A stretch of DNA of 34,920 nucleotides from Candidatus Gottesmanbacteria bacterium RIFCSPLOWO2_01_FULL_42_22 (lineage in GTDB: Bacteria > Patescibacteriota > Microgenomatia > 2-02-FULL-39-11): positions 1 through 34,920 of the forward strand of contig MFJU01000039.1 in assembly GCA_001779315.1 (NCBI GenBank), read 5' to 3'. Shown here piece after piece: positions 1-27,443 of this stretch (position 1 is the stretch's first letter; the number at the start of each line of letters is the position of its first letter). The translations under genes and the position numbers were made by a program. Below the pieces are notes generated by a model. It saw only the letters and a program-made list of their open reading frames with translations. It did no database searches and was not told the DNA's origin.

Positions 1-1049
1 TCCCGTCTTCTTGAGACCTGATCGGAAACGGCATTAATCAGACCGGAGATCGCTTCCACCGTCGTCCGGTAATTTTTGATAAAACCAGGAATGACCTCTT
101 CTATTTCCCTGGTATTCTTTTCTGAAACTGAAGGCGCGATGCCTTTTGGCAGCTCGTTTTTTATCTTTTTGACGGCGGCCAAAACAGCTGATTTGGGATA
201 ATCATAACGGAAAGCGCTCTGGATGGTCAGAGTCTTAATTCCGCTATATTCCTTAAGGGCGTTATCAAGATTGGCCGGAGAAAGACCTCCTCTAAACGGC
301 AAAGAACCTGTTCCCAACATGGGAAAAAGGGCAACACCGCAAGATTCCGACAGTTTTTTATATTTTGATAAGGCCACTTTTAAAGCTAATATGGTGGGAA
401 CCAAACCGGAATTCAAAGCCGGGTCGCTTCTGGCACAATAAGGACGGATATAGGAGGGTTTTTTTCCGAATTTTTTCCGGTGCAGATCGATATATTTGGC
501 TAAAATTTCATCGGAATACATGATGGTCGAGACCTGCTCAAAAAGAGGAATTATTTCAATATGTTCCAGGGACTCATTCATTTTCAAAAGTTTATGCTCA
601 ATACTCACCAGAAGGCGAAAGGCTTCCTGGATGTCAATAATTTCCTCGGCTGTTTCCGTCAGAGGTAAGATAGCCTCAAAAATAGGCGGCTCCCTAAATC
701 CCAAAGATTTGGCTAGTTGGCTTGAGGTGATAGCTACCATCAGTGCGCGGGCCAGTCTGAACTGCTTCTCCACCCTGGGATTGGGGAAGCGGAAGGTCAG
801 AAATTTTTCCCGGCCTAAAGGGTTTTTTTTAAAATAGCGGTAATACTCATGCAGCAGGCGGTCAACCACGGCTTCATCGACAAACTTGCCTTCCCAATCC
901 CAATTGTATTCATCAATAGCCAAATCGGAAAAACAGAGATAACTTTCATGGAGTTCGGCTGAAGCAGAAATAAACGGTCGGTTATGCCAATAGGGCTTGC
1001 CGGCATTGTCCGGATGCTGGGTTGCCATCGTCGTCGGTATTTTGCGCAT
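1..1049 (-). CDS. ppcA: Phosphoenolpyruvate carboxylase, archaeal type (C-terminus outside window)
   Basis: Carboxylates phosphoenolpyruvate to oxaloacetate, feeding aspartate and hence threonine and isoleucine. About 349 codons are open from ATG 1049 to the left edge with no stop; the family is about 500 residues, so roughly the last third is missing. The N-terminus reads MRKIPTTMATQHPDN, matching the (S/A)TQHPDN signature of the archaeal-type enzyme. Further family blocks follow in order: FEAILPLT, IIPLFE, ARSDPALNSG, GTGSLPFRGGL, TIQSAFRYD and a C-terminal FIKNYRTTVEAI segment. The start lies 3 nt after the recJ stop, so the two genes are probably co-transcribed with recJ first. This is not the large bacterial PEPC, which is about 900 residues. 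The fold call is firm; the enzyme class follows from the motifs. Confidence 0.88.
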   Translation of the reverse strand, partial: MRKIPTTMATQHPDNAGKPYWHNRPFISASAELHESYLCFSDLAIDEYNWDWEGKFVDEAVVDRLLHEYYRYFKKNPLGREKFLTFRFPNPRVEKQFRLARALMVAITSSQLAKSLGFREPPIFEAILPLTETAEEIIDIQEAFRLLVSIEHKLLKMNESLEHIEIIPLFEQVSTIMYSDEILAKYIDLHRKKFGKKPSYIRPYCARSDPALNSGLVPTILALKVALSKYKKLSESCGVALFPMLGTGSLPFRGGLSPANLDNALKEYSGIKTLTIQSAFRYDYPKSAVLAAVKKIKNELPKGIAPSVSEKNTREIEEVIPGFIKNYRTTVEAISGLINAVSDQVSRRR

Positions 1050-10938: not shown

Positions 10939-11356
10939 TGTTTTGGTTTATTTAAAAGATAATAATTCCCCCCAGCAGAAATCGGCATTCAAGCTCATAT
11001 CATCATTTCTGCCTGAAGATTATGAGCTATTTCTGTCATCCCTAACGATTGATGAATATCTTCACTCATCCCTATTTATTCTGAAACACCACAAAATTCC
11101 TGTCCCGGAACGATTCAAAAAGGTATTTGAGGCATTAAAAACAATTCTTGACCTTCAGCATTTAAAAATTGTAAATCCATCCGATAGTAAGGAAAATAAT
11201 TTAAAAATCGTAGACATAATGCAGAATTTTAATTTAAATCCCAGAGACGCGTACCATTTTTTAACAATGCAGGAAAATGATATTCATGAGTTTGCCACTT
11301 TCGATAATGACTTTAAAGAAGTATTTACAAAAAAATATCTAAAACATAGCGAGTAA
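10913..11356 (+). CDS. PIN-domain toxin (VapC-like ribonuclease)
   Basis: 147 aa from ATG 10913 (MKKCYLDSNVLVYLKD); an in-frame TTG at 10901 is less likely. PIN-domain acidic residues are in place: Asp in YLDSNVL, Glu in LTIDEYLHS, Asp in LNPRDAYHF and Asp in FATFDNDF. These coordinate Mg2+ for RNA cleavage. It overlaps the antitoxin gene by 26 nt, which keeps the two translated together. The target RNA is unknown. Confidence 0.82.
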   Translation: MKKCYLDSNVLVYLKDNNSPQQKSAFKLISSFLPEDYELFLSSLTIDEYLHSSLFILKHHKIPVPERFKKVFEALKTILDLQHLKIVNPSDSKENNLKIVDIMQNFNLNPRDAYHFLTMQENDIHEFATFDNDFKEVFTKKYLKHSE

Positions 11357-11375: not shown

Positions 11376-11405
11376 TTGACAGGGAAAGCGGGGAAAGAGT
11401 ATAAT
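11376..11405 (+). promoter_or_regulatory. Promoter of the leucine operon
   Basis: Consensus TTGACA (11376-11381), an 18-bp spacer and consensus TATAAT (11400-11405). The predicted start of transcription is near 11412, directly at the leucine-rich leader peptide ATG (11415). It is one of the strongest promoters in the window. Confidence 0.85.
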
Positions 11406-11414
11406 TACAAAATC

Positions 11415-11468
11415 ATGCCGGGATTTTCTCTCCTAAACCTTGATTTGGGCCTTCTTCTGAAGGCTTAA
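11415..11468 (+). CDS. leuL: Leucine operon leader peptide
   Basis: A 17-codon ORF, MPGFSLLNLDLGLLLKA. Seven of 17 residues are leucine, including a Leu-Leu pair and a Leu-Leu-Leu run, using CTC, CTA, CTT, TTG and CTG codons. It starts 9 nt after the -10 box, so its mRNA is leaderless or nearly so. Its 3' part forms segment 1 of an attenuator and its stop lies 7 nt before segment 2. Stalling at Leu codons under leucine shortage would allow read-through into DUF2000-leuB. It has no homology to the enterobacterial LeuL; the assignment rests on position, composition and RNA structure. Confidence 0.85.
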   Translation: MPGFSLLNLDLGLLLKA

Positions 11469-11530
11469 AGGGTTTGGGGAGAAAATTTTTTTATTAAATT
11501 TGAATCTCTCCAAACAGGAGAGGTTTTTTT
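11423..11530 (+). promoter_or_regulatory. Leucine attenuator: 1:2, 2:3 and 3:4 alternative RNA stems
   Basis: Segment 1 (TCTCTCC 11427-11433, inside the leader ORF) pairs with segment 2 (GGGGAGA, about 11476-11482) in a long hairpin (11423-11486) closed by ATTTTCTC/GAGAAAAT. That hairpin also carries a run of seven T. Segment 2 (TTTGGGGAGA 11473-11482) can instead pair with segment 3 (TCTCTCCAAA 11505-11514) as a 10-bp antiterminator with one G-U. Segments 3 and 4 form the terminator. Segments 1 and 3 share the identical TCTCTCC, the mark of a switch. A ribosome at the leader stop would cover segment 2, while one stalled on the Leu codons would free it. Confidence 0.85.
11503..11530 (+). terminator. 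Attenuator terminator (3:4 stem) of the leucine operon
   Basis: CTCTCC-AAACA-GGAGAG stem (11506-11522), extended by AAT/GTT pairs, followed directly by seven T (11524-11530). It lies 140 nt upstream of the first operon gene. Confidence 0.85.
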
Positions 11531-11670: not shown

Positions 11671-12099
11671 ATGCAGCCAGAAGAATTAGAAAATAAATTT
11701 GTCGCTGTCCTAAATAAGAAAATTCCGATCGGGAGCCTGATGAACGCTCTCGGACACATGGCCGCCGGTTTGGTCGGAAGTTACCCCAATATTCCCAAGA
11801 TGCGTTTTGACTCGTATTTCGACCAAAACGGTAATGATCATAAAAGCATTTCCGATCATCCGTTTATTATTTTGTCCGCTGATAATTCCAACCAGCTACG
11901 CATGCTTAGACAAAGTTTGACAGAGTCCGGTGTTCATATTGTTGACTTTACCAGCACCATGACAGTCGGATCGTATGCAGAACAAAAAGAACGGACTAAA
12001 AATACACCGGAAGAACAGCTTGAATATTACGGAATCTGTATGTTCGGCAAAAATAACATTATTAATCCGCTTACAAAAAAATTTTCTTTATGGAGGTAA
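11671..12099 (+). CDS. DUF2000 family protein (Pth2-like fold)
   Basis: 142 aa. The start matches the DUF2000 pattern: KFVAVLNKKIPIGSLMNALGHMAAGL, followed by PFIILSADNSNQLRMLRQSL and VDFTSTMTVGS. Structures in this family resemble peptidyl-tRNA hydrolase 2, but catalytic activity is not established. It is the first structural gene behind the leucine attenuator, with a good AAAGGAG site 8 nt before the ATG. The stop is 1 nt before the next start, so it is firmly in the operon. A role linked to tRNA quality is inference from the fold and the next gene. Confidence 0.75.
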   Translation: MQPEELENKFVAVLNKKIPIGSLMNALGHMAAGLVGSYPNIPKMRFDSYFDQNGNDHKSISDHPFIILSADNSNQLRMLRQSLTESGVHIVDFTSTMTVGSYAEQKERTKNTPEEQLEYYGICMFGKNNIINPLTKKFSLWR

Positions 12100-12100
12100 C

Positions 12101-12568
12101 ATGGCAGATTCCACTTATCAGAAATTAAAACAATTCTATGCCGACTCTAAAGTGCTTTTTCGGGAACTAGTTCATGACCCCGGTGCATCGGCCGAAGAAT
12201 ATCACCAAGCTTTGGGCTGCCGGTATGAACAGCAGCTTAAATGTTTATTGATAAAAGTCTATGAACAAAATAAGGAATATTTTGTCATGGTTACTATTCC
12301 CGCAAATAAACGTGCGGATTTTGAAACAATTAAACAGCATTTCAATGCCAAAAAAATCCGTGGGGCAACACTGGATGAGTTACGTCAGGTAACCGGCTGC
12401 GAGTATGGTGAGGTGCCCGCCTCCGGAAAGATTTTCGGTATTTCCCTTCTTATGGATAAAGATTTTCTCAATGAACAGGAAGTATATATGAATGCTGGAA
12501 TCGTCACTAAATCATTTGTTGTCAATCCGAAGGATCTGATCAAGATTGAAGAGCCGTTAATATTCTGA
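12101..12568 (+). CDS. YbaK/ProX-type aminoacyl-tRNA deacylase domain protein
   Basis: 155 aa from ATG 12101; an in-frame ATG at 11975 is rejected because the ribosome site GGAGG directly precedes 12101. The YbaK/INS fold is visible: LGCRYEQQLKCLLIKV (the usual K in the core strand), FVMVTIPANKRADFETIKQHF, IRGATLDELRQVTGCEYGEVPASGKIF (the conserved GxxPPFG-like turn), and VYMNAGIVTKSFVVNPKDL. Relatives hydrolyse mischarged tRNAs such as Cys-, Ala- or 2-aminobutyrate-tRNA(Pro). Its position in a leucine operon suggests protection against side products of 2-oxo acid synthesis; the true substrate is unknown. Confidence 0.78.
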   Translation: MADSTYQKLKQFYADSKVLFRELVHDPGASAEEYHQALGCRYEQQLKCLLIKVYEQNKEYFVMVTIPANKRADFETIKQHFNAKKIRGATLDELRQVTGCEYGEVPASGKIFGISLLMDKDFLNEQEVYMNAGIVTKSFVVNPKDLIKIEEPLIF

Positions 12569-12578
12569 AAGAAGTCGA

Positions 12579-12917
12579 ATGAAAACCAAATCCTTATTTT
12601 CAAAATATAATCTGGCCGAGGTGGATAGAAAGCTCGGCAATAATTTCTGGACACCTGTCGACGTGGCAATTATAAACGATTGGGTGTTAAGGGCGGCGGC
12701 TTGCAAAGGGATAAATAAGTGGCATAAACATAATGAAGACGAGTTTTTTCTCATTTATAAAGGTAAAATCACTGTCTTAACCGAAAAAGGAAACGTCGAT
12801 TTAGAGGAAGGAGAAGGGTATGTCGTACCTAAAGGTGTTAAACATTACTGCAGAGCAAATGAACGGGCGGTGGTTTTGCTTTTGGAACCCAGGAAAGTCA
12901 ATACCAAAGGAGACTGA
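12579..12917 (+). CDS. Single-domain cupin protein
   Basis: 112 aa. Cupin motif 1 is [20 protein letters not shown] (about residues 47-66), with the two His and Glu as metal ligands. Motif 2 is [18 protein letters not shown], with the last His ligand. The substrate cannot be told from sequence; small cupins include isomerases, dioxygenases and ligand sensors. The stop overlaps the leuA start (TGATG), so it is translationally coupled to leuA, suggesting a role in, or sensing of, the leucine pathway (inference). Confidence 0.8.
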
Positions 12918-14425
12918 TGAAAAATCAGAAAATTTATATTTTCGATACGACTTTGCGGGACGGCGAACAGTCGCCGGGGGCAAAACTTAATACCGACCAA
13001 AAAATCCAGCTGGCTCTGCAACTGGAAAATCTGGGGGTGGATGTAATTGAGGCCGGTTTCCCTGTCTCCAGTCCCGGAGATTTCCGGTCAGTTGAGAAAA
13101 TATCGGCAATTATCAGAAATGCGGTCGTCTGCGGACTGACCCGGGCGGTCAGGGAAGACATTGACGCGGCTTCCAAAGCTTTGAAAAAAGCCAGATATCC
13201 CAGGATTCATACCGGCATCGGCGCCTCGGACGTCCACATCAAATACAAATTCAAGTCAACCCGGGAAAAAATCCTGGCAAGAGCTATCGAAGCGGTCAAA
13301 TATGCCAAAAAACATGTGGCAGAGGTGGAATTTTATGCCGAGGATGCCGGCAGGGCTGATTTGGAGTTTTTGGCAAAAATGATTCAATCCATTATCCGCG
13401 CCGGGGCGACCGTCGTCAATATTCCTGATACGACCGGTTACTGTTTCCCGGAAGAATTCGGCCAAAAAATAAAATTTTTAAAAGAAAATGTTGCCAATAT
13501 CGACAAAGCCGTCATCAGCGTCCACTGCCATGACGACCTGGGTCTGGCTACTGCCAATACTTTAGCCGGTATCACATACGGAGCAAGACAGGTGGAAGTG
13601 ACTGTCAACGGTATCGGCGAACGGGCCGGCAATACTTCACTTGAGGAAGTGGTCATGGCCTTGTATACCAGGAAAGATTTTCTCAATTTCACAAGCGGAA
13701 TTAAGCATAAGCAAATAGTCAACACATCCAGAATAGTGTCACACATTATGGGTATCCCTATTGCGCCGAATAAAGCCATTGTGGGCGCCAATGCTTTCGC
13801 CCATTCTTCCGGTATCCATCAGGATGGGATTCTCAAAAGGCGGGAAAATTATGAGATTATCGATCCGAAAACTGTCGGCATCGGACAGTCGCAAATCATA
13901 CTGTCTGCCAGAAGCGGCCGGGCAGCTTTAAAGCACAAACTTGAAAAAATGAATATCAATATTTCAGGTGGGGAATTGGAAAGTCTTTATCCAAAATTCC
14001 TTGAGCTGGCTGATGCCAAAAAAGAAATTTTTGATGAAGATATCCTAACTCTTTTAACCGGCGGCGGCAACGGAAAAAACGGGCAGAAGAAAATTAAATT
14101 GTTGGATCTAAATATTTTTTCCGGAGTCAAAAAAAAGCCCTGGGCAGAAATAAAAATTAAGGTATCAGGAAAAGTTAAAACAGCCCAAACTTCCGGCAAC
14201 GGCACCATTGACGCTATTTTTTCAGCCGTCAATAAATCCCTGGGGAAAAAATTTCCCTTAAAAGAATTCCTGATACAGGCGGCAACTGCCGGTTCCGATG
14301 CCCAGGCCAGAGTCAATATTGCTCTTGAGGATAAGAAGAAACTTTATTGGGGTTCGGCAGTTCACACGGATACGGTCATGGCCGCGGCTCAAGCCTATAT
14401 CGATGCGATAAACCATTTGCCATGA
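12917..14425 (+). CDS. leuA: 2-isopropylmalate synthase
   Basis: Condenses acetyl-CoA with 2-oxoisovalerate, the committed step to leucine. 502 aa, normal length. The N-terminal TIM barrel has [12 protein letters not shown] (9-20) and [10 protein letters not shown] with metal His residues. The linker has [20 protein letters not shown] and PKTVGIGQ. The C-terminal regulatory domain is at about 385-500 ([22 protein letters not shown]), where leucine normally binds. The motifs fit LeuA rather than citramalate synthase. It overlaps the cupin stop by one base and the leuCD start by ATGA. Controlled by the leader attenuator at 11.4 kb. Confidence 0.95.
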
Positions 14426-16323
14426 AGAGTAAAATTAGCGGCCGGATAACCTCCGTTTTCCCTGACGACATCAATACCGATGACATCGTACCGGCCTGGA
14501 CCCTGCAGGAATCAACGGAGAGGAAATATTTTGCCAACTATGCTTTTGCCAATTACGACTCCGGTTTTATAAAAAGATGTGCCGGCGAAAAATCAAACAT
14601 CATTGTCGCCGGAGAATATTTCGGCTGCGGCTCAAGCCGGGAACAGGCTGTCTATGCTTTGCAGGAAAACAGGGTGACGGCCGTCATCGCCAAATCATTT
14701 CCCGATATTTTTTACCGTAATTGCCTCAACAACGGTTTGTCTTTAATCACTGTTCCTGATATAGCCGGTTTTAAATTGAAGGATTCAATTGAAATTGATC
14801 TAGAAAAGAAACAAATCAGCGTCAATAAAAATAAAAAAATCAGTTTTAAGATGCCGGAGGCTGATGCCAAATTATTTGCCCTGGGAGGGAAACTGGCGGC
14901 CGTCCAAAAGCATCTGGCGGAAATCCTCCAACAGGGAAAATATACAAAAATAAATTATTGGCAGGCAAAAAAGACAAATCATATTCCGCAGACAATAGTT
15001 GAAAAAATTATTTCCGACCATTTGGGTAAAACGGTTTCTGCCGGAGACAAAATTGACAAACTGCCCATTGACCTTCTTTTTTTCAACGAGGTGATTGCCC
15101 CTCCGGCAATTGCGCAATTCCAGAAAGACTTTAGTAGAGTTTTCCAAAAAATGAACAGCGGAGAAAAAGTCTTCGATCCCAAAAGGATATTTTTTATCCC
15201 CGACCATACCGTTCCCTCATCATCTGTAGCTGTATCCGAAGGCATTGATTTCATGGAAAAATTTGCCGTCGAAGCGGGAATCAAATGCTATAAAGAGGGC
15301 GACGGAATCGAGCATGTTGTCCTTATTGAAGACGGATATATCGTCCCCGGTTCAATCATTTTGGGCACTGACTCCCATACAGACACCAACGGCGCCTTAA
15401 ATGCCCTGGCTTTGGGAGTAGGCACTTCCGACGCATCTTTTGCCCTGGCCACCGGTCACCTCTATGATTTTAGAGTGCCAGAAACTATCCGGATAAATCT
15501 GACCGGAAAATTCTCAAAAGGCGTTAGTGCCAAAGATCTGATCTTAACTTTAATCGGTAAAATGGGGGTTGACGGGGCAGTCAGAAGGATAGTCGAATTC
15601 GGAGGGCCGGCTTTGATGAATATGTCCATGGACGAAAGGACGACGGTTGCCAATATGGCTGTCGAGATGGGCGCCAGGACGGCCATTTTTGACCATGACC
15701 GAATTTTGGAAAAATATCTTGCCGGCCGGGCTAAATTTCCCTATAAAACATACTCAGCTGATAAAGACTTTCATTACGAAAAAGTCATCACGGTTGAATT
15801 GGCCACATTGGAACCGACGATCGCCTTTCCCCACAAACCGGCCAATACCACTTCAATCGGGAAAATCAAAGAGTATATGAAAAAATCGCAAGAATCGACA
15901 AGCGCCGACTTTGCCCGGGTGAATAATCTAAAAATTACGGATGCTTTTTTGGGTGCCTGCACCAACGGCCGTTTTGACGATTTTCTGGAAGCGGCTAAAA
16001 TCATCAAAGGCAGGAAAGTGCATCCGAAAGTGAATTTCGTTGTAATTCCGGCTTCCAGAAAAGTCTATAATAAGCTTTTGGAAAAAGGTCTTCTCAAACT
16101 GTTTGCAGATGCCGGTGCCAATATAGAATCTTCCAATTGCGGTCCATGTTTCGGCAAGCACATGGGAGTGGTCGGCCGCGGCGCGCAAATGATTTCTTCC
16201 TCAAACCGCAATTATATCGGCCGCATGGGAAGTAAGGAGGCAAAAATATTTTTGGCCTCCCCCGCTTCCGTCACCGCCGCTGCCGTCAGCGGTGAAATTA
16301 CCGACCCGAGGAAATTTTTATGA
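14422..16323 (+). CDS. leuCD: Fused 3-isopropylmalate dehydratase, small (LeuD) plus large (LeuC) subunit
   Basis: Interconverts 2- and 3-isopropylmalate through 2-isopropylmaleate. One 633-aa chain from ATG 14422; the longer frame from 14347 is rejected because it overlaps leuA. Residues about 1-170 are the swivel LeuD domain ([37 protein letters not shown]). Residues about 190-633 are LeuC ([27 protein letters not shown]). The three [4Fe-4S] cysteines are present: Cys513 in GACTNG, and Cys573 and Cys576 in NCGPCFG. Usually LeuC and LeuD are separate proteins; the swivel-first order recalls aconitase B. The start overlaps leuA (ATGA) and the end overlaps leuB (ATGA). Confidence 0.9.
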
Positions 16324-17390
16324 AAAAAACCATTGCCGTGTTGCCTGGCGACGGGATCGGACCGGAGGTCGTCAGACAGGCGGTCAAAGTTTTAAAATCT
16401 GTAGCTTATAAATTCGGGCATGAATTTATTTTCAGGGAAGGGTTAATCGGGGCCGGAGCAATTCAGAAAACGGGCCGTCCCCTGCCGGAAGAAACACTGA
16501 AACTCAGCCGGCAAGCCGATGCTATACTTTTGGGAGCAATTGGCGACCCGAAATATGACAAAGATCCGCAGGCAAAAATCCGACCCGAGCAGGGTCTTCT
16601 GAAACTGCGCAAATCTCTCAATCTCTTTGCCAATTTGCGTCCGGTCAAAATTTATCCGCAACTTTTAAATATCTCGCCTCTTAAAAATGAGAGGATAAAA
16701 AAGGTGGATATTATGGTGGTCAGGGAACTGACCGGAGGCATTTATTTCGGACAGCACAGGCGCTACGACGGAGGGTATTCGGCTTCGGACTTGAGTGTTT
16801 ACACTAAAAATGAAATAACAAGAGTGGCTAAAATCGCCTTTAACCACGCCTCTAGAAGAAAAAAAATCCTGCATTCGATAGACAAAGCCAATGTGCTGGC
16901 GACTTCCTGTCTCTGGCGCGAGACTGTTTCTGATTTGTCTGAAGATTATCCGGAAGTGGAAGTTGTCCATATGTTTGTTGATACTGCCTCCATGCAGCTT
17001 GTCAAAAATCCGCGGCAATTTGACGTCATCCTGACGGAAAACATGTTCGGCGACATTCTGACAGATGAGGCCTCGGTCATTGCCGGCTCGATCGGACTTC
17101 TGCCTTCGGCCTCAATCGGGGATAAACACGCTCTCTACGAACCGATACATGGAGCTTTCAATAAAGCCGCCGGCAAGAATATTGCCAACCCGATCGGCAC
17201 CATTCTTTCGGCTGCCATGATGCTGAAAATGTCATTTCAACTGGATATGGAAGCAAGGGCAATTGAAAGGGCAATTGAAAAAGTTATCGATTGCGGATTC
17301 TGCACAAAAGAAATTGCCGGTGAAAATACTGAGGCGGAGAAAATATTGGGGACAAAAGAGATCGGCAATCTCCTCGCTAAACTGATTTGA
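16320..17390 (+). CDS. leuB: 3-isopropylmalate dehydrogenase
   Basis: Oxidises and decarboxylates 3-isopropylmalate to 2-oxoisocaproate, using NAD. 356 aa, normal length. Motifs: VLPGDGIGPEVV (N-terminal), LGAIGDPKYD, RPEQGLLKLRKSLNLFANLRP (substrate Arg residues), VVRELTGGIYFG, DKANVLATSCLWRE, VDTASMQLV (catalytic Asp), and the NAD site LYEPIHGAFNKAAGKNIANP. The start overlaps leuCD by ATGA, with a GAGGAAA ribosome site. Its 3' end overlaps the convergent PIN gene by 14 bases. Last gene of the leucine operon. Confidence 0.95.
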   Translation: MKKTIAVLPGDGIGPEVVRQAVKVLKSVAYKFGHEFIFREGLIGAGAIQKTGRPLPEETLKLSRQADAILLGAIGDPKYDKDPQAKIRPEQGLLKLRKSLNLFANLRPVKIYPQLLNISPLKNERIKKVDIMVVRELTGGIYFGQHRRYDGGYSASDLSVYTKNEITRVAKIAFNHASRRKKILHSIDKANVLATSCLWRETVSDLSEDYPEVEVVHMFVDTASMQLVKNPRQFDVILTENMFGDILTDEASVIAGSIGLLPSASIGDKHALYEPIHGAFNKAAGKNIANPIGTILSAAMMLKMSFQLDMEARAIERAIEKVIDCGFCTKEIAGENTEAEKILGTKEIGNLLAKLI

Positions 17391-19945: not shown

Positions 19946-20374
19946 CTAACAACACCCGCCGCAGCAGCCCTCATCATCGGCGTGCCCGTGGGAAGAACTT
20001 TTATAGGCAATGCATTCAATCTCGATAATGGCATCTTTGGGCAGCCTGGTCACCTGGACGGTGGCTCTGGCAGGATAAGGCTCTGAAAAAAATTTACCGT
20101 AGATGCCGTTTACTACCGGAAAATCTTCCATGTTTGTCAGATAAACAGTAACTTTGAGCACATTTTTTTCTGCGGTACCGGCTGCTTTGAGAACTTCGTT
20201 TAAGTTTTTTAAAACCTGGCGGGTTTGTACATTGATGCCGCCTTTGACCATCTCGCCCGTCTTAGGATCATTGCCGATCTGGCCGGAAACAAATACTAAA
20301 TCTGAGATTTTAACCGCCTGGGAATAGGGCCCGATGGCTTTGGGACTTTTATCCGTAACAACTGCTTTTTTCAC
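19946..20374 (-). CDS. ridA: RidA family 2-iminobutanoate/2-iminopropanoate deaminase with Cys-rich tail
   Basis: Hydrolyses reactive enamine/imine intermediates made by PLP dehydratases such as threonine deaminase and so protects PLP enzymes including IlvE. 142 aa; RidA is about 125. Core: AIGPYSQAVKISDLVFVSGQIG (N-terminal), KVTVYLTNMEDFPVVN, YPARATVQV (the conserved active-site Arg) and IIEIECIAYK. An unusual C-terminal tail SSSHGHADDEGCCGGCC follows, which looks able to bind metal. The start is GTG overlapping the upstream TGA. It is placed between the threonine synthase fusion and ilvE, where its activity is needed. Confidence 0.92.
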   Translation of the reverse strand: MKKAVVTDKSPKAIGPYSQAVKISDLVFVSGQIGNDPKTGEMVKGGINVQTRQVLKNLNEVLKAAGTAEKNVLKVTVYLTNMEDFPVVNGIYGKFFSEPYPARATVQVTRLPKDAIIEIECIAYKSSSHGHADDEGCCGGCC

Positions 20375-22233
20375 GTTTTTTCCTTTCCGTTCCTAAATCT
20401 TTGATAAACAAGTTCATTATACCCTTTTTCATAGGCTTCGATAGAGGCGACAATGATATCCGGCGAAGTCCCTTTTTCCACAACCTGGGTGCCGTGCTCG
20501 TCCTGCAAAACCATAGTGGCCTCAACTGTTGCATCCGAACCGGTGGTCGGAATCTCAACGGCAAAATCGGTCAGTTTGAATTTGACCGGATCTTTTTTCT
20601 GAATGGCGGCGGTGATGGCGCGGATGGCAGCATCAACCGGGCCGACTCCGTCGCTCTTTTCCGTCGTTTTACGCCCTTTTATATCAACCGTCACAGTGGC
20701 CAGCGGTTTCTTTTTCTTGAAAGTTTCGACGTGAAAATCAAGCACTTCCAATGTTTTTTTCCGTCTTTCATCGGCTATGACCGTCTCAATAATTGACTGC
20801 AAATCCGCCTTGACGATCTGTTTGCCTTTGATATTGATGAATTTGGCGATAACGTTGCGGATGATTTTGAGTGTTTCTTCATCCAGATTCAGGCTGAATT
20901 CCTTTTTGATTTTTTGCTTAACTTCCGACAGAGCCGGGACTTTGGTAAAAATCAGCTTTTCCTTTTCACCGACACTGCCTGCTCGCAAACTCAAAAAATC
21001 GCTGTCCATCACTCTTTCGACTTCGGATAAAACCGGCTCTATGATCGGCGGTTCGGCAATGACTTTCAAAGTGGTGGCCGGATCTTTGAGCCCGGCCCCG
21101 GTGGCCACACAGACAACCGTGTCGTTTTCTTTGATCAGACCTTTTTTAATTAATTTTTTTAAAGCTGCTATAACTGTCGCCGATGAAGGCTCGACATAAA
21201 GAGCCTCGAGTCTGGCCAATTCCTGCTGGGCTTTTAAGGTTTCATCATCAGAAACGGCAACGGCCTGCCCTTTTGACTCTTGTAAAGCGGCAAAGACTTT
21301 GGGTGCGTCAATCGGATTGCCGACAGCAATTGCCGAACAGACGGTTTGTGGTTTATTTACCGGTTCGAGTTTACTCTTTTTCTCAAAAGAGGTGACAATC
21401 GGGTTCGCTCCGTCTGCCTGGACAGCGACCATATGCGGCAGTTTGGGGATAAGTCCGAGGCGGTAATATTCCTTGAAGCCTTTCCAGATATAGGACAGAT
21501 TAGTGCCCATACCGACCGGGACCAGGACCCAATCAGGCGGGGAAAACCACAATTGCTCACAGACCTCGTATGATAACGACTTCTGTCCTTCACCCCGGAA
21601 AGCGTAATCACCGGCCAGATAGAAGCGGTAATGGGCGGCTACCTTCATCGTCAGATTATAAGCATCGGAATAAGTGCCCCTGACCTGGATAACATTAGCT
21701 CCATAAGAAATGGCCTGGGCTAGCTTTCCCCGCGGCGTATTTTCCGGCACAAAGACAAAACAGGTGAGTCCTGCCTGGGCGCTGTAGGCAGCCACTGAAG
21801 CCGCCATGTTGCCGGTTGAAGCCACACAAACTTTGGCAAAGCCCAACTCCTTGGCTTTGTTGATCTCGACAAAGCTCCCTCTGTCTTTGAAGGCGCCGGT
21901 CGGGTTTAAACCCTCGTTTTTGATGTAGAGTTTTTTAAGAGACAGTTTTTTGCCTAAGGATTCCGCCTTGTGGAGCTGTGTCGCTCCCTCATCCAAAGTC
22001 ACTAAATGTTTTTTTTCTTTTAAAGGATAAAAATCCAGATATTTGATGACTTTGGGCGGGGCGTTTCGAAGCAGATAGGTATTCAAATCAGCCAGCTGGT
22101 CATAATCGTAAACGATATCCAAGGGCCCGCCGCAGCTGCAAACGGTCGTATTTTCCTTTTCATCCCAAACTTTTCCGCACAGAAAACAGCTGATATGGTA
22201 AAAATGTCCGTTGGTTGTCATTTTTTCTGCCAT
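20371..22233 (-). CDS. thrC: Threonine synthase fused to a LeuA-type regulatory domain
   Basis: Makes threonine from O-phosphohomoserine (PLP, fold type II). Residues 1-395 are the catalytic part: a zinc-ribbon-like start with Cys16, 19, 32 and 34, EGLNPTGAFKDRG with PLP Lys116, STGNMAASVAAY, and RGEGQKSLSYEVCEQLWF. The sequence NPTGAFKDRG favours synthase over deaminase. Residues about 395-440 are a linker containing a repeat-like stretch. Residues 441-620 match the C-terminal part of LeuA: a helical hinge, then DGVGPVDAAIRAI, TTGSDATVEATM and DIIVASIEAY, as in the leuA of this window. The second ATG (22221) forms ATGA with the ilvC stop and may be the true start. The domain could sense isoleucine or leucine (inference). 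Confidence 0.88.
   Translation of the reverse strand: MAEKMTTNGHFYHISCFLCGKVWDEKENTTVCSCGGPLDIVYDYDQLADLNTYLLRNAPPKVIKYLDFYPLKEKKHLVTLDEGATQLHKAESLGKKLSLKKLYIKNEGLNPTGAFKDRGSFVEINKAKELGFAKVCVASTGNMAASVAAYSAQAGLTCFVFVPENTPRGKLAQAISYGANVIQVRGTYSDAYNLTMKVAAHYRFYLAGDYAFRGEGQKSLSYEVCEQLWFSPPDWVLVPVGMGTNLSYIWKGFKEYYRLGLIPKLPHMVAVQADGANPIVTSFEKKSKLEPVNKPQTVCSAIAVGNPIDAPKVFAALQESKGQAVAVSDDETLKAQQELARLEALYVEPSSATVIAALKKLIKKGLIKENDTVVCVATGAGLKDPATTLKVIAEPPIIEPVLSEVERVMDSDFLSLRAGSVGEKEKLIFTKVPALSEVKQKIKKEFSLNLDEETLKIIRNVIAKFINIKGKQIVKADLQSIIETVIADERRKKTLEVLDFHVETFKKKKPLATVTVDIKGRKTTEKSDGVGPVDAAIRAITAAIQKKDPVKFKLTDFAVEIPTTGSDATVEATMVLQDEHGTQVVEKGTSPDIIVASIEAYEKGYNELVYQRFRNGKEKT
20974..21036 (-). repeat. 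Repeat-like insertion encoded inside the threonine synthase fusion linker
   Basis: Encodes PVLSEVERVMDSDFLSLRAGS (residues about 400-420). The LSEVER and LRAGS peptides are the kind produced when short palindromic repeats of the type found between genes in many draft genomes are read in frame. From general experience this looks like such a repeat. A second copy in this window was not found to prove it, although the ilvN-ilvC gap holds a similar palindrome. Confidence 0.4.
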
Positions 22234-27337: not shown

Positions 27338-27417
27338 TAATCGTCTATTTAAAAAGTTCGGCCCGTCTGCCTCCCAATATTTATCCCTGTCCAATGACAG
27401 GGACAATAATCGGGAGG
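27316..27417 (-). promoter_or_regulatory. Ile/Val attenuator: alternative RNA stems before ilvD
   Basis: Segment 1 (minus-strand CCTCCC, plus 27412-27417, in the leader ORF) pairs with segment 2 (GGGAGG, plus 27370-27375) around a strong CCCTGTC/GACAGGG hairpin (27385-27402). Segment 2 (AATATTGGGAGGC, 27369-27381) can instead pair with segment 3 (GCCTCCAATATT, 27324-27335), 12 bp with one bulged G: the antiterminator. Segments 3 and 4 form the terminator. The leader stop codon touches segment 2, so a ribosome that finishes would block the antiterminator, while one stalled on Ile/Val codons would leave it free. Confidence 0.87.
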
Positions 27418-27443
27418 ATATTGATTTGATTGTGACGCGCCAT
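27381..27443 (-). CDS. ilvL: Branched-chain leader peptide of the ilv operon
   Basis: A 20-codon ORF, MARHNQINILPIIVPVIGQG. Eight of 20 residues are Ile, Val or Leu (five Ile, two Val, one Leu), clustered at positions 7-17. It starts 10 nt after the predicted -10 box (27454-27459), so its transcript is essentially leaderless. Its 5'-proximal half contains segment 1 and its stop abuts segment 2 of the attenuator. It would stall under shortage of isoleucine, valine or leucine. It shares no obvious sequence with enterobacterial ilv leaders; the assignment is by composition and position. Confidence 0.85.
   Translation of the reverse strand: MARHNQINILPIIVPVIGQG

Follow-up and report, generated by a model that had tools for sequence, protein, structure and literature searches.

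Does the short stretch of DNA ahead of the leucine biosynthesis genes of a Gottesmanbacteria genome serve as a leucine-responsive, ribosome-mediated transcription attenuator of the classical type? To our knowledge, gene regulation in Patescibacteria (CPR), to which Gottesmanbacteria belong, is little known, and few members are culturable. The stretch occupies positions 11376–11530 of the window, that is, the whole 34,920-nucleotide piece of DNA analysed, which is contig 39 of a genome (G000) of 1,419,839 bases and 93.3% completeness. The attenuator reading, to which we assign a probability of roughly 0.9, is supported by the anatomy of the element, its recurrence across the Gottesmanbacteria family, covariation among its segments, and the match between leader codons and downstream pathway.

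Anatomy of the leader region and its operon

The upstream neighbour, a PIN-domain gene, ends at 11356 and is followed on the forward strand by a promoter that matches the consensus at all 12 letters, as the original prediction had it: a −35 box TTGACA (11376–11381) and a −10 box TATAAT (11400–11405), separated by an 18-nt spacer. The −35 box is TTGACA in nine of the ten leu leaders of the Gottesmanbacteria family, the sole departure being TTGCAA in G001. Judging from the 9-nt gap between the −10 box and the start codon, transcription would begin at 11412–11414, 0–3 nt 5′ of an ATG at 11415. This ATG opens the predicted leader ORF (11415–11468, forward strand), which encodes the peptide MPGFSLLNLDLGLLLKA, with leucine at 7 of its 17 codons.

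Four segments on the same strand complete the element. Segment 1 (11420–11440, with a bulged U at 11431) lies within the leader ORF and is supported by folding, a species-swap test, and synonymous recoding. A nested 10-bp hairpin (11445–11468) takes in the final part of the ORF, Leu-Leu-Leu codons included. Segment 2 (11470–11489; core GGTTTGGGGAGA, with TTTGGGGAGA at 11473–11482) can pair with segment 1 or segment 3. Segments 3 (11502–11511) and 4 (11517–11526) are the 5′ and 3′ arms of the anticipated intrinsic terminator, a hairpin at 11502–11526 with seven T at 11524–11530. The TCTCTCC repeat that had been noted is present at 11427–11433 and 11505–11511, but the real segments are longer than these heptamers.

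The operon behind the attenuator runs DUF2000–ybaK–cupin–leuA–leuDC–leuB, all on the forward strand. Its first gene encodes a DUF2000 protein (11671–12099; PF09391, 130.9 bits) and is preceded by a Shine–Dalgarno-like sequence. The second encodes a YbaK-like aminoacyl-tRNA editing domain protein (12101–12568; PF04073, matched in the ORF read from 11975, with the start at 12101 picked by its Shine–Dalgarno sequence) and the third a cupin protein (12579–12917; PF07883). These are followed by leuA, encoding 2-isopropylmalate synthase (12917–14425; HMGL-like and LeuA_dimer), a leuD–leuC fusion (14422–16323; Aconitase and Aconitase_C), and leuB (16320–17390; Iso_dh). The expected leuA, leuCD, and leuB genes are thus present, with three further genes ahead of them and with leuC and leuD fused. 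Leucine makes up 8.0% of codons across the six genes.

The companion Ile/Val attenuator placed in the same block by the original prediction also has its leader, an ORF encoding MARHNQINILPIIVPVIGQG (27381–27443, reverse strand) before ilvD–ilvB–ilvN–ilvC, with counterparts in eight other family genomes; the T tract of its terminator is interrupted, and the terminator rule of our script did not accept it. Within this ilv operon, at the place expected for ilvA, the window encodes a fusion of a threonine-synthase-like PLP enzyme with a LeuA allosteric (dimerisation) domain (20371–22233, reverse strand; TIGR00260, 263.6 bits against a cut-off of 167.1). The fusion is the sole match over the thrC cut-off in G000, G008, and G004, and a second match over this cut-off is present in G001, G009, and G014.

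Folding and synonymous recoding of the leader

The 1:2 pairing joins 11420–11440 to 11470–11489 and encloses the nested hairpin; this region folds at −38.2 kcal/mol (z −6.5), a value that none of 200 shuffles equals, and the nested hairpin by itself at −13.4 kcal/mol (z −4.0; 1 of 200 shuffles equals it). The 2:3 pairing alone (48 nt) reaches −16.7 kcal/mol (z −4.3; 1 of 200) and the 3:4 pairing −13.2 kcal/mol (z −3.0; 2 of 200). Because the 2:3 core comprises 11 bp (11472–11482 with 11505–11515), most of segment 2 is able to pair with the segment on either side. The three pairings are mutually exclusive, and when segments 2, 3, and 4 are folded without segment 1, the 2:3 antiterminator prevails (−16.7; z −2.0; 9 of 200).

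Synonymous recoding of the window peptide abolishes the native 1:2 strength: none of 300 recodings reaches the native pairing with segment 2, and at most 7 of 300 do so in each of the ten family leu leaders. Among all 46 leaders tabulated (see below), 31 pair more strongly than the mean of their recodings (mean z −0.97), and in five (G364, G325, G175ilvB, G234, and G006leuS) the 1:2 pairing is weaker than in most synonymous recodings. By this measure, strong coding-level 1:2 pairing is limited to the leu leaders of the Gottesmanbacteria family.

Recurrence and covariation in related genomes

The leuA gene is rare in the class, being found in 34 of 373 genomes (E ≤ 1e-80), and its surroundings were examined in all 34. 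The contig ends before the operon start in G007, G039, G101, and G313, leaving 30 genomes. All 30 have a leader ORF and a terminator before leuA or its operon, a count of unequal rigour: a strict composition-blind scan finds the leader in 22 of them (for G009, the ilv leader), and the remaining eight (G001, G004, G161, G255, G283, G311, G351, and G058) come from a looser scan or from reading the upstream DNA. The peptide of G058, MVCSTVINVVLSP, is the least convincing of these leaders.

Leu leaders of the Gottesmanbacteria family include MTGISLLNPDLSLLLKV, MKNLFLLNLFLLLPGEF, and MIWQALLNQLNLLLLKV; G008 is the only genome of the same genus in the search. The Leu codons on which the original prediction was staked are retained, since all ten family genomes with upstream sequence have a leader with six or seven leucines and the 1/2/3/4 architecture. 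The TCTCTCC/GGGGAGA/TCTCTCC pattern fared differently in its two aspects, the architecture being kept in ten of ten but the exact heptamer varying. Segment 2 starts with GGTTT in every one of these ten leaders. A second termination point had been claimed near 11492, where a T7 tract follows the 1:2 hairpin in the window, but it is poorly kept in relatives; a run of at least five T after segment 2 occurs in only three of the ten family leu leaders (G000, G008, and G004), and this termination point was therefore not adopted.

Covariation analysis upstream of leuA, proposed as a check on the attenuator, shows that segments 1, 2, and 3 co-vary in the Gottesmanbacteria family. In a hand alignment of the 10-bp 1:2 core from nine genomes (G008, with one U–U mismatch by eye, was left out), all 90 cells hold standard pairs. 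Pair types differ on both sides at positions 6, 7, 9, and 10, with the changes at 7, 9, and 10 coming from the window alone, its bulged base set aside, and that at 6 from G010. Native pairings were also compared with species-swapped ones, each upstream region being free to choose its best site (20,000 permutations; floor p 5e-5). Among the ten family leu leaders, native 1:2 pairing exceeds swapped pairing (−19.6 versus −15.8; p 5e-5, the floor), as does 2:3 pairing (−14.2 versus −12.3; p 0.006), and across all 46 leaders both pairings give p 5e-5, again the floor. The 21 leaders of other families are strong in 2:3 (p 5e-5), with a 1:2 pairing that as a group is no better than swapped (p 0.44), and in 16 of the 21 the stop codon lies −4 to +9 nt from the start of segment 2. 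Outside the Gottesmanbacteria family, we read the arrangement as a reduced form of attenuator, with the blocking of segment 2 left to the ribosome.

These results bear on an alternative account of the element, in which the terminator is an ordinary one belonging to the PIN-domain gene, the Leu-rich ORF arose by chance, and the leu operon is read from an unseen promoter further down. A terminator 150 bp past a gene would not be odd. This account nevertheless has to accommodate a perfect promoter match between the PIN gene and the terminator, the recurrence of the arrangement at leu in ten family genomes and at ilv, cys, and thr-related operons (below), and a pairing that synonymous recoding destroys, and we regard it as hardly credible.

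Comparison with known RNA elements

A further possibility is that the RNA senses leucine or leucyl-tRNA directly, as a T-box or riboswitch, or binds a protein such as the DUF2000 product, with the ORF unused. T-box leaders sense tRNA charging, control a terminator, and, unlike the window element, are not known to have a leader ORF. They do occur in the class (matches in 69 of 137 genomes at E ≤ 0.001, and over the cut-off in 9 of 137), and DUF2000 stands directly behind the element; yet neither a T-box (RF00230) nor a riboswitch model matches at the site, whether at the gathering score or at E up to 10, and a frame of control codons 5–23 nt before segment 2 recurs among the leaders, with the amino acid changing with the operon. 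A T-box or other direct RNA sensor at 11376–11530 was rejected for want of a model match, and direct sensing or protein binding with the ORF unused appears very unlikely. The Rfam leucine leader family, which we take to be RF00512, likewise gives no match, either at its gathering score or among the 14 matches listed at E up to 10; the nearest leader model among those listed is Phe_leader, with 22.2 bits against a cut-off of 55.

Elsewhere in G000, T-box matches were found at C34:3676–3840, C4:60634–60862, and C27:5332–5481, all below the curated cut-off. The idea that attenuators replace T-boxes in the class was rejected because T-boxes are present there.

Leader codons, pathway, and geometry

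The leader table comprises 46 rows, chosen partly for richness in Leu, Ile, and Val and not by operon type; five further leaders (G161leu, G194leu, G319leu, G000ilv, and G002ilv) were dropped after failing the script's terminator rule. In the 16 leu leaders, 35% of residues are Leu and 7% are Ile or Val; the corresponding figures for the 21 ilv or ilv-led leaders are 17% and 28%. The difference L − (I + V) separates the two sets without overlap (p 3e-7, uncorrected for species kinship; the leu peptides of G364 and G325 are almost identical).

For these 37 leaders, leu and ilv together, the distance between the final codon of the nearest upstream run and segment 2 has a median of 15 nt (range 5–23), the run being sought, by definition, upstream of that segment; a ribosome stalled at such a distance would be expected to leave segment 2 only just accessible. 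The window has its Leu run 14 nt and its stop codon 5 nt before segment 2, a placement that suits the proposed attenuation. Stop codons fall −4 to +9 nt from segment 2 in 32 of the 46 leaders and 9–34 nt beyond its start in the other 14, among them the G006 leu leader (30 nt) and six of the seven ilv leaders tabulated for the family. In those 14, the stop codon is too far downstream for segment 2 to be covered, in the way proposed below, by a ribosome that has reached it.

Proposed mechanism

For the window we propose that RNA polymerase initiates only a few bases from the leader AUG and that the ribosome begins on a leaderless end. With charged leucyl-tRNA plentiful, the ribosome would reach the stop codon and cover segment 2, or leave and allow 1:2 to re-form; with segment 2 thus occupied, segment 3 would pair with segment 4 and transcription would end at the T7 tract. 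When leucine is short, the ribosome would stall on the run of Leu codons, some 14 nt short of segment 2, and mask segment 1, so that segment 2 pairs with segment 3, no terminator forms, and DUF2000–ybaK–cupin–leuA–leuDC–leuB is read.

The same parts might instead sense the arrival of a ribosome, or translation in general, with leaderless initiation as the sensor. In its favour, the start codon lies near the 5′ end and the 1:2 pairing would form without a ribosome; untranslated RNA would therefore terminate. The contrasting Leu and Ile plus Val contents of leu and ilv leaders point to the amino acid, however, which makes a signal other than leucine highly improbable.

Scans for leaders

The first filter for leaders was biased towards richness in Leu, Ile, and Val. 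A composition-blind scan run to remove this bias (promoter, gap of 7–12 nt, ORF of 11–34 codons, terminator), with limits fixed after leaders had been seen, covered 1,316,844 bases of leuA-region loci, both strands counted. It returned 30 matches, against a mean of 1.0 per copy in three Markov-shuffled copies, none of which had a match rich in Leu, Ile, or Val. Twenty-seven of the 30 stand before leu, ilv, ilvA, or citramalate synthase genes, including one (L073:9370) separated from leuA by 0.66 kb and a second leader; the three elsewhere are L041:6628 (reverse strand), L058:16856, and L070:4465. Since the loci were chosen for leuA, the scan speaks to where such leaders stand, not to their frequency across whole genomes.

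Two patterns searched for in whole genomes are independent of leuA. The pattern GAGAG-N18-48-CTCTC-N3-8-GAGAG-N-TTTT gave nine rows at eight sites in 15 genomes, six at leu and two at ilv, and no match in the reversed control of the same genomes; G000 and G008, whose leu leaders have GGGGAG, gave none. The GGGAG form of the 2-3-4 pattern gave 18 sites against none in the control. A GGCGG-type pattern was discarded, its one match in 15 genomes falling in apparent coding sequence.

Candidate attenuators before other genes

At 10 of the 18 GGGAG sites, the residues of the leader ORF fit the next gene. A Cys run or pair (CCC; CC in G004) precedes a gene resembling cysteine synthase or cystathionine beta-synthase in G004, G007, G012, G013, and G014. 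Two of these genes were compared with family models: that of G013 is over the cysK cut-off, and that of G007 has cystathionine beta-synthase as its best model, below cut-off; those of G004, G012, and G014 are named by sequence resemblance. In G011, a Cys run from a leader starting near the contig end precedes a PIG-L deacetylase resembling bacillithiol BshB (below cut-off). Aromatic and Ser leaders are among the ten as well: FFYFYF before DAHP synthase in G002 (over cut-off) and SPSS before a SerB-like phosphatase in G006 (below cut-off). Apart from the ten, G006 has a Leu leader, MNIFFLLLLRTA, before DUF2000 and a partial leuS.

Thr runs or repeats precede an epimerase-type dehydrogenase and a Kbl-like gene at GGGAG sites in G000 and G004, and also in G008; these Thr-rich leaders are at loci L137, L085, and L132. 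The gene pair presumably resembles the threonine-degrading tdh–kbl, and no tdh model matched the dehydrogenase. An attenuator that answers to starvation would be sensible there only for genes that produce threonine. In G000, G004, and G008, no separate thrC exceeds the cut-off.

Five of the 18 sites carry a conserved run-less peptide (MQNFNFISLIAFQFIVGG, MQINLITLISVQLFAGG, and kin) before large proteins, of which the three scanned (G000, G008, and G005) have no Pfam match. These leaders, each with a 2-3-4 attenuator, are at L131, L133, L136, L144, and L146 (G003, G005, G008, G004, and G000); the peptide is perhaps an arrest peptide and not a starvation sensor. The sites in G002:C23, G006:C22, and G009:C1 have no clear reading. 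Outside the family, a leader with IIAITTT lies ahead of threonine ammonia-lyase, whose match exceeds the cut-off, and one with III..III ahead of a citramalate synthase-like gene that narrowly misses its cut-off. At L090 (G012:C66, around 317), the terminator pattern matched what appears by eye to be a cobalamin riboswitch.

Leaderless-type starts

In 40 of the 46 leaders, and in all 25 from the window's family (mode 10), the start codon follows the −10 box after a gap of 7–12 nt, within a range bounded by the promoter-picking script, which examined gaps of 5–13 nt. No Shine–Dalgarno-like motif precedes the leader ORF in any of the 46, and three of the six window operon genes have one (DUF2000, ybaK, and leuA). 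Given these gaps and the missing motif, the leaders look leaderless, with start sites deduced from promoter spacing. Summed over 15 family genomes, TTGAC-17..19-TATNNT is followed by ATG at 8–10 nt 208 times, versus 53 in the reversed control, and at 18–20 nt 106 times, versus 48; leaderless starts may therefore be common in the Gottesmanbacteria family.

A recurrent promoter of leaderless type, TTGACCAT...TATCATA-CATAAG-ATG, was seen before large proteins beginning MDNLPK (L100 and L106) or MDDPSK (L119). At L104, TTGACCAT...TAGTATACTAC...ATG precedes a small basic protein that looks like ribosomal protein S20.

Relation to known attenuators and implications

The leucine attenuator mechanism is itself classical and already known. 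In enterobacterial leuL, a short ORF containing a run of Leu codons is combined with mutually exclusive 2:3 and 3:4 pairings and with an intrinsic terminator before leuA. The window element shares the Leu-run ORF, the exclusive pairings, and the terminator before the leuA operon; it differs in its patescibacterial host, in lacking a Shine–Dalgarno-like motif, in a start codon 9 nt after the −10 box, and in an operon that starts with DUF2000–ybaK–cupin and has leuD and leuC fused.

Leaderless leader ORFs are known elsewhere. In the alphaproteobacterium Sinorhizobium meliloti, the 5′ end of the trp attenuator transcript (peTrpL) is reported to be the ATG of the leader ORF (PMC7298713). The window element would resemble peTrpL in combining transcription attenuation with a leaderless leader ORF, the 5′ end being stated for peTrpL and deduced for the window, and differs in sensing, as proposed here, Leu where peTrpL senses Trp. 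For the ilvBNC attenuator of the actinobacterium Corynebacterium glutamicum, another branched-chain attenuator, initiation on leaderless mRNA is likewise part of the published discussion, and a terminator hairpin (H3) and an anti-antiterminator are described; it concerns one operon and was tested by mutation (PMC11857589). In contrast, the window has separate leu and ilv leaders, predicted from sequence. Searches of the open-licence literature returned no published report of a leader-peptide attenuator in Patescibacteria or CPR; in the CPR papers checked, "leader peptide" denotes a bacteriocin or natural-product leader and not an attenuator.

DUF2000 is linked to leucine by its gene neighbourhood. 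In both the window and G004 it is the gene immediately following the Leu attenuator; it lies between a Leu leader and leuS in G006, and adjoins leuB in G161, G194, and G319. Its name was found in no paper of the open-licence literature searched, and by sequence it resembles no PDB entry more than weakly, the best match being 2gax (E 0.099).

On a broader scale, we consider it more probable than not that Microgenomates-type Patescibacteria run a set of leaderless leader-peptide attenuators as a main amino-acid-sensing system beside T-boxes, responding to Leu, Ile/Val, Ile, Thr, Cys, aromatic residues, and Ser, each before the matching pathway. The set would take two architectures: a four-segment form in the Gottesmanbacteria family and a reduced form in other families, which has lost segment 1 and often has its stop codon directly against segment 2. 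If true, no earlier description of leader-peptide attenuation in Patescibacteria exists, so far as our searches show, and patescibacterial ribosomes would initiate on leaderless mRNAs. The leaders tie DUF2000, a family of unknown function, to leucine, and they offer evidence, at the level of sequence, that Patescibacteria couple transcription to translation, initiate on leaderless mRNAs, and sense amino acids.
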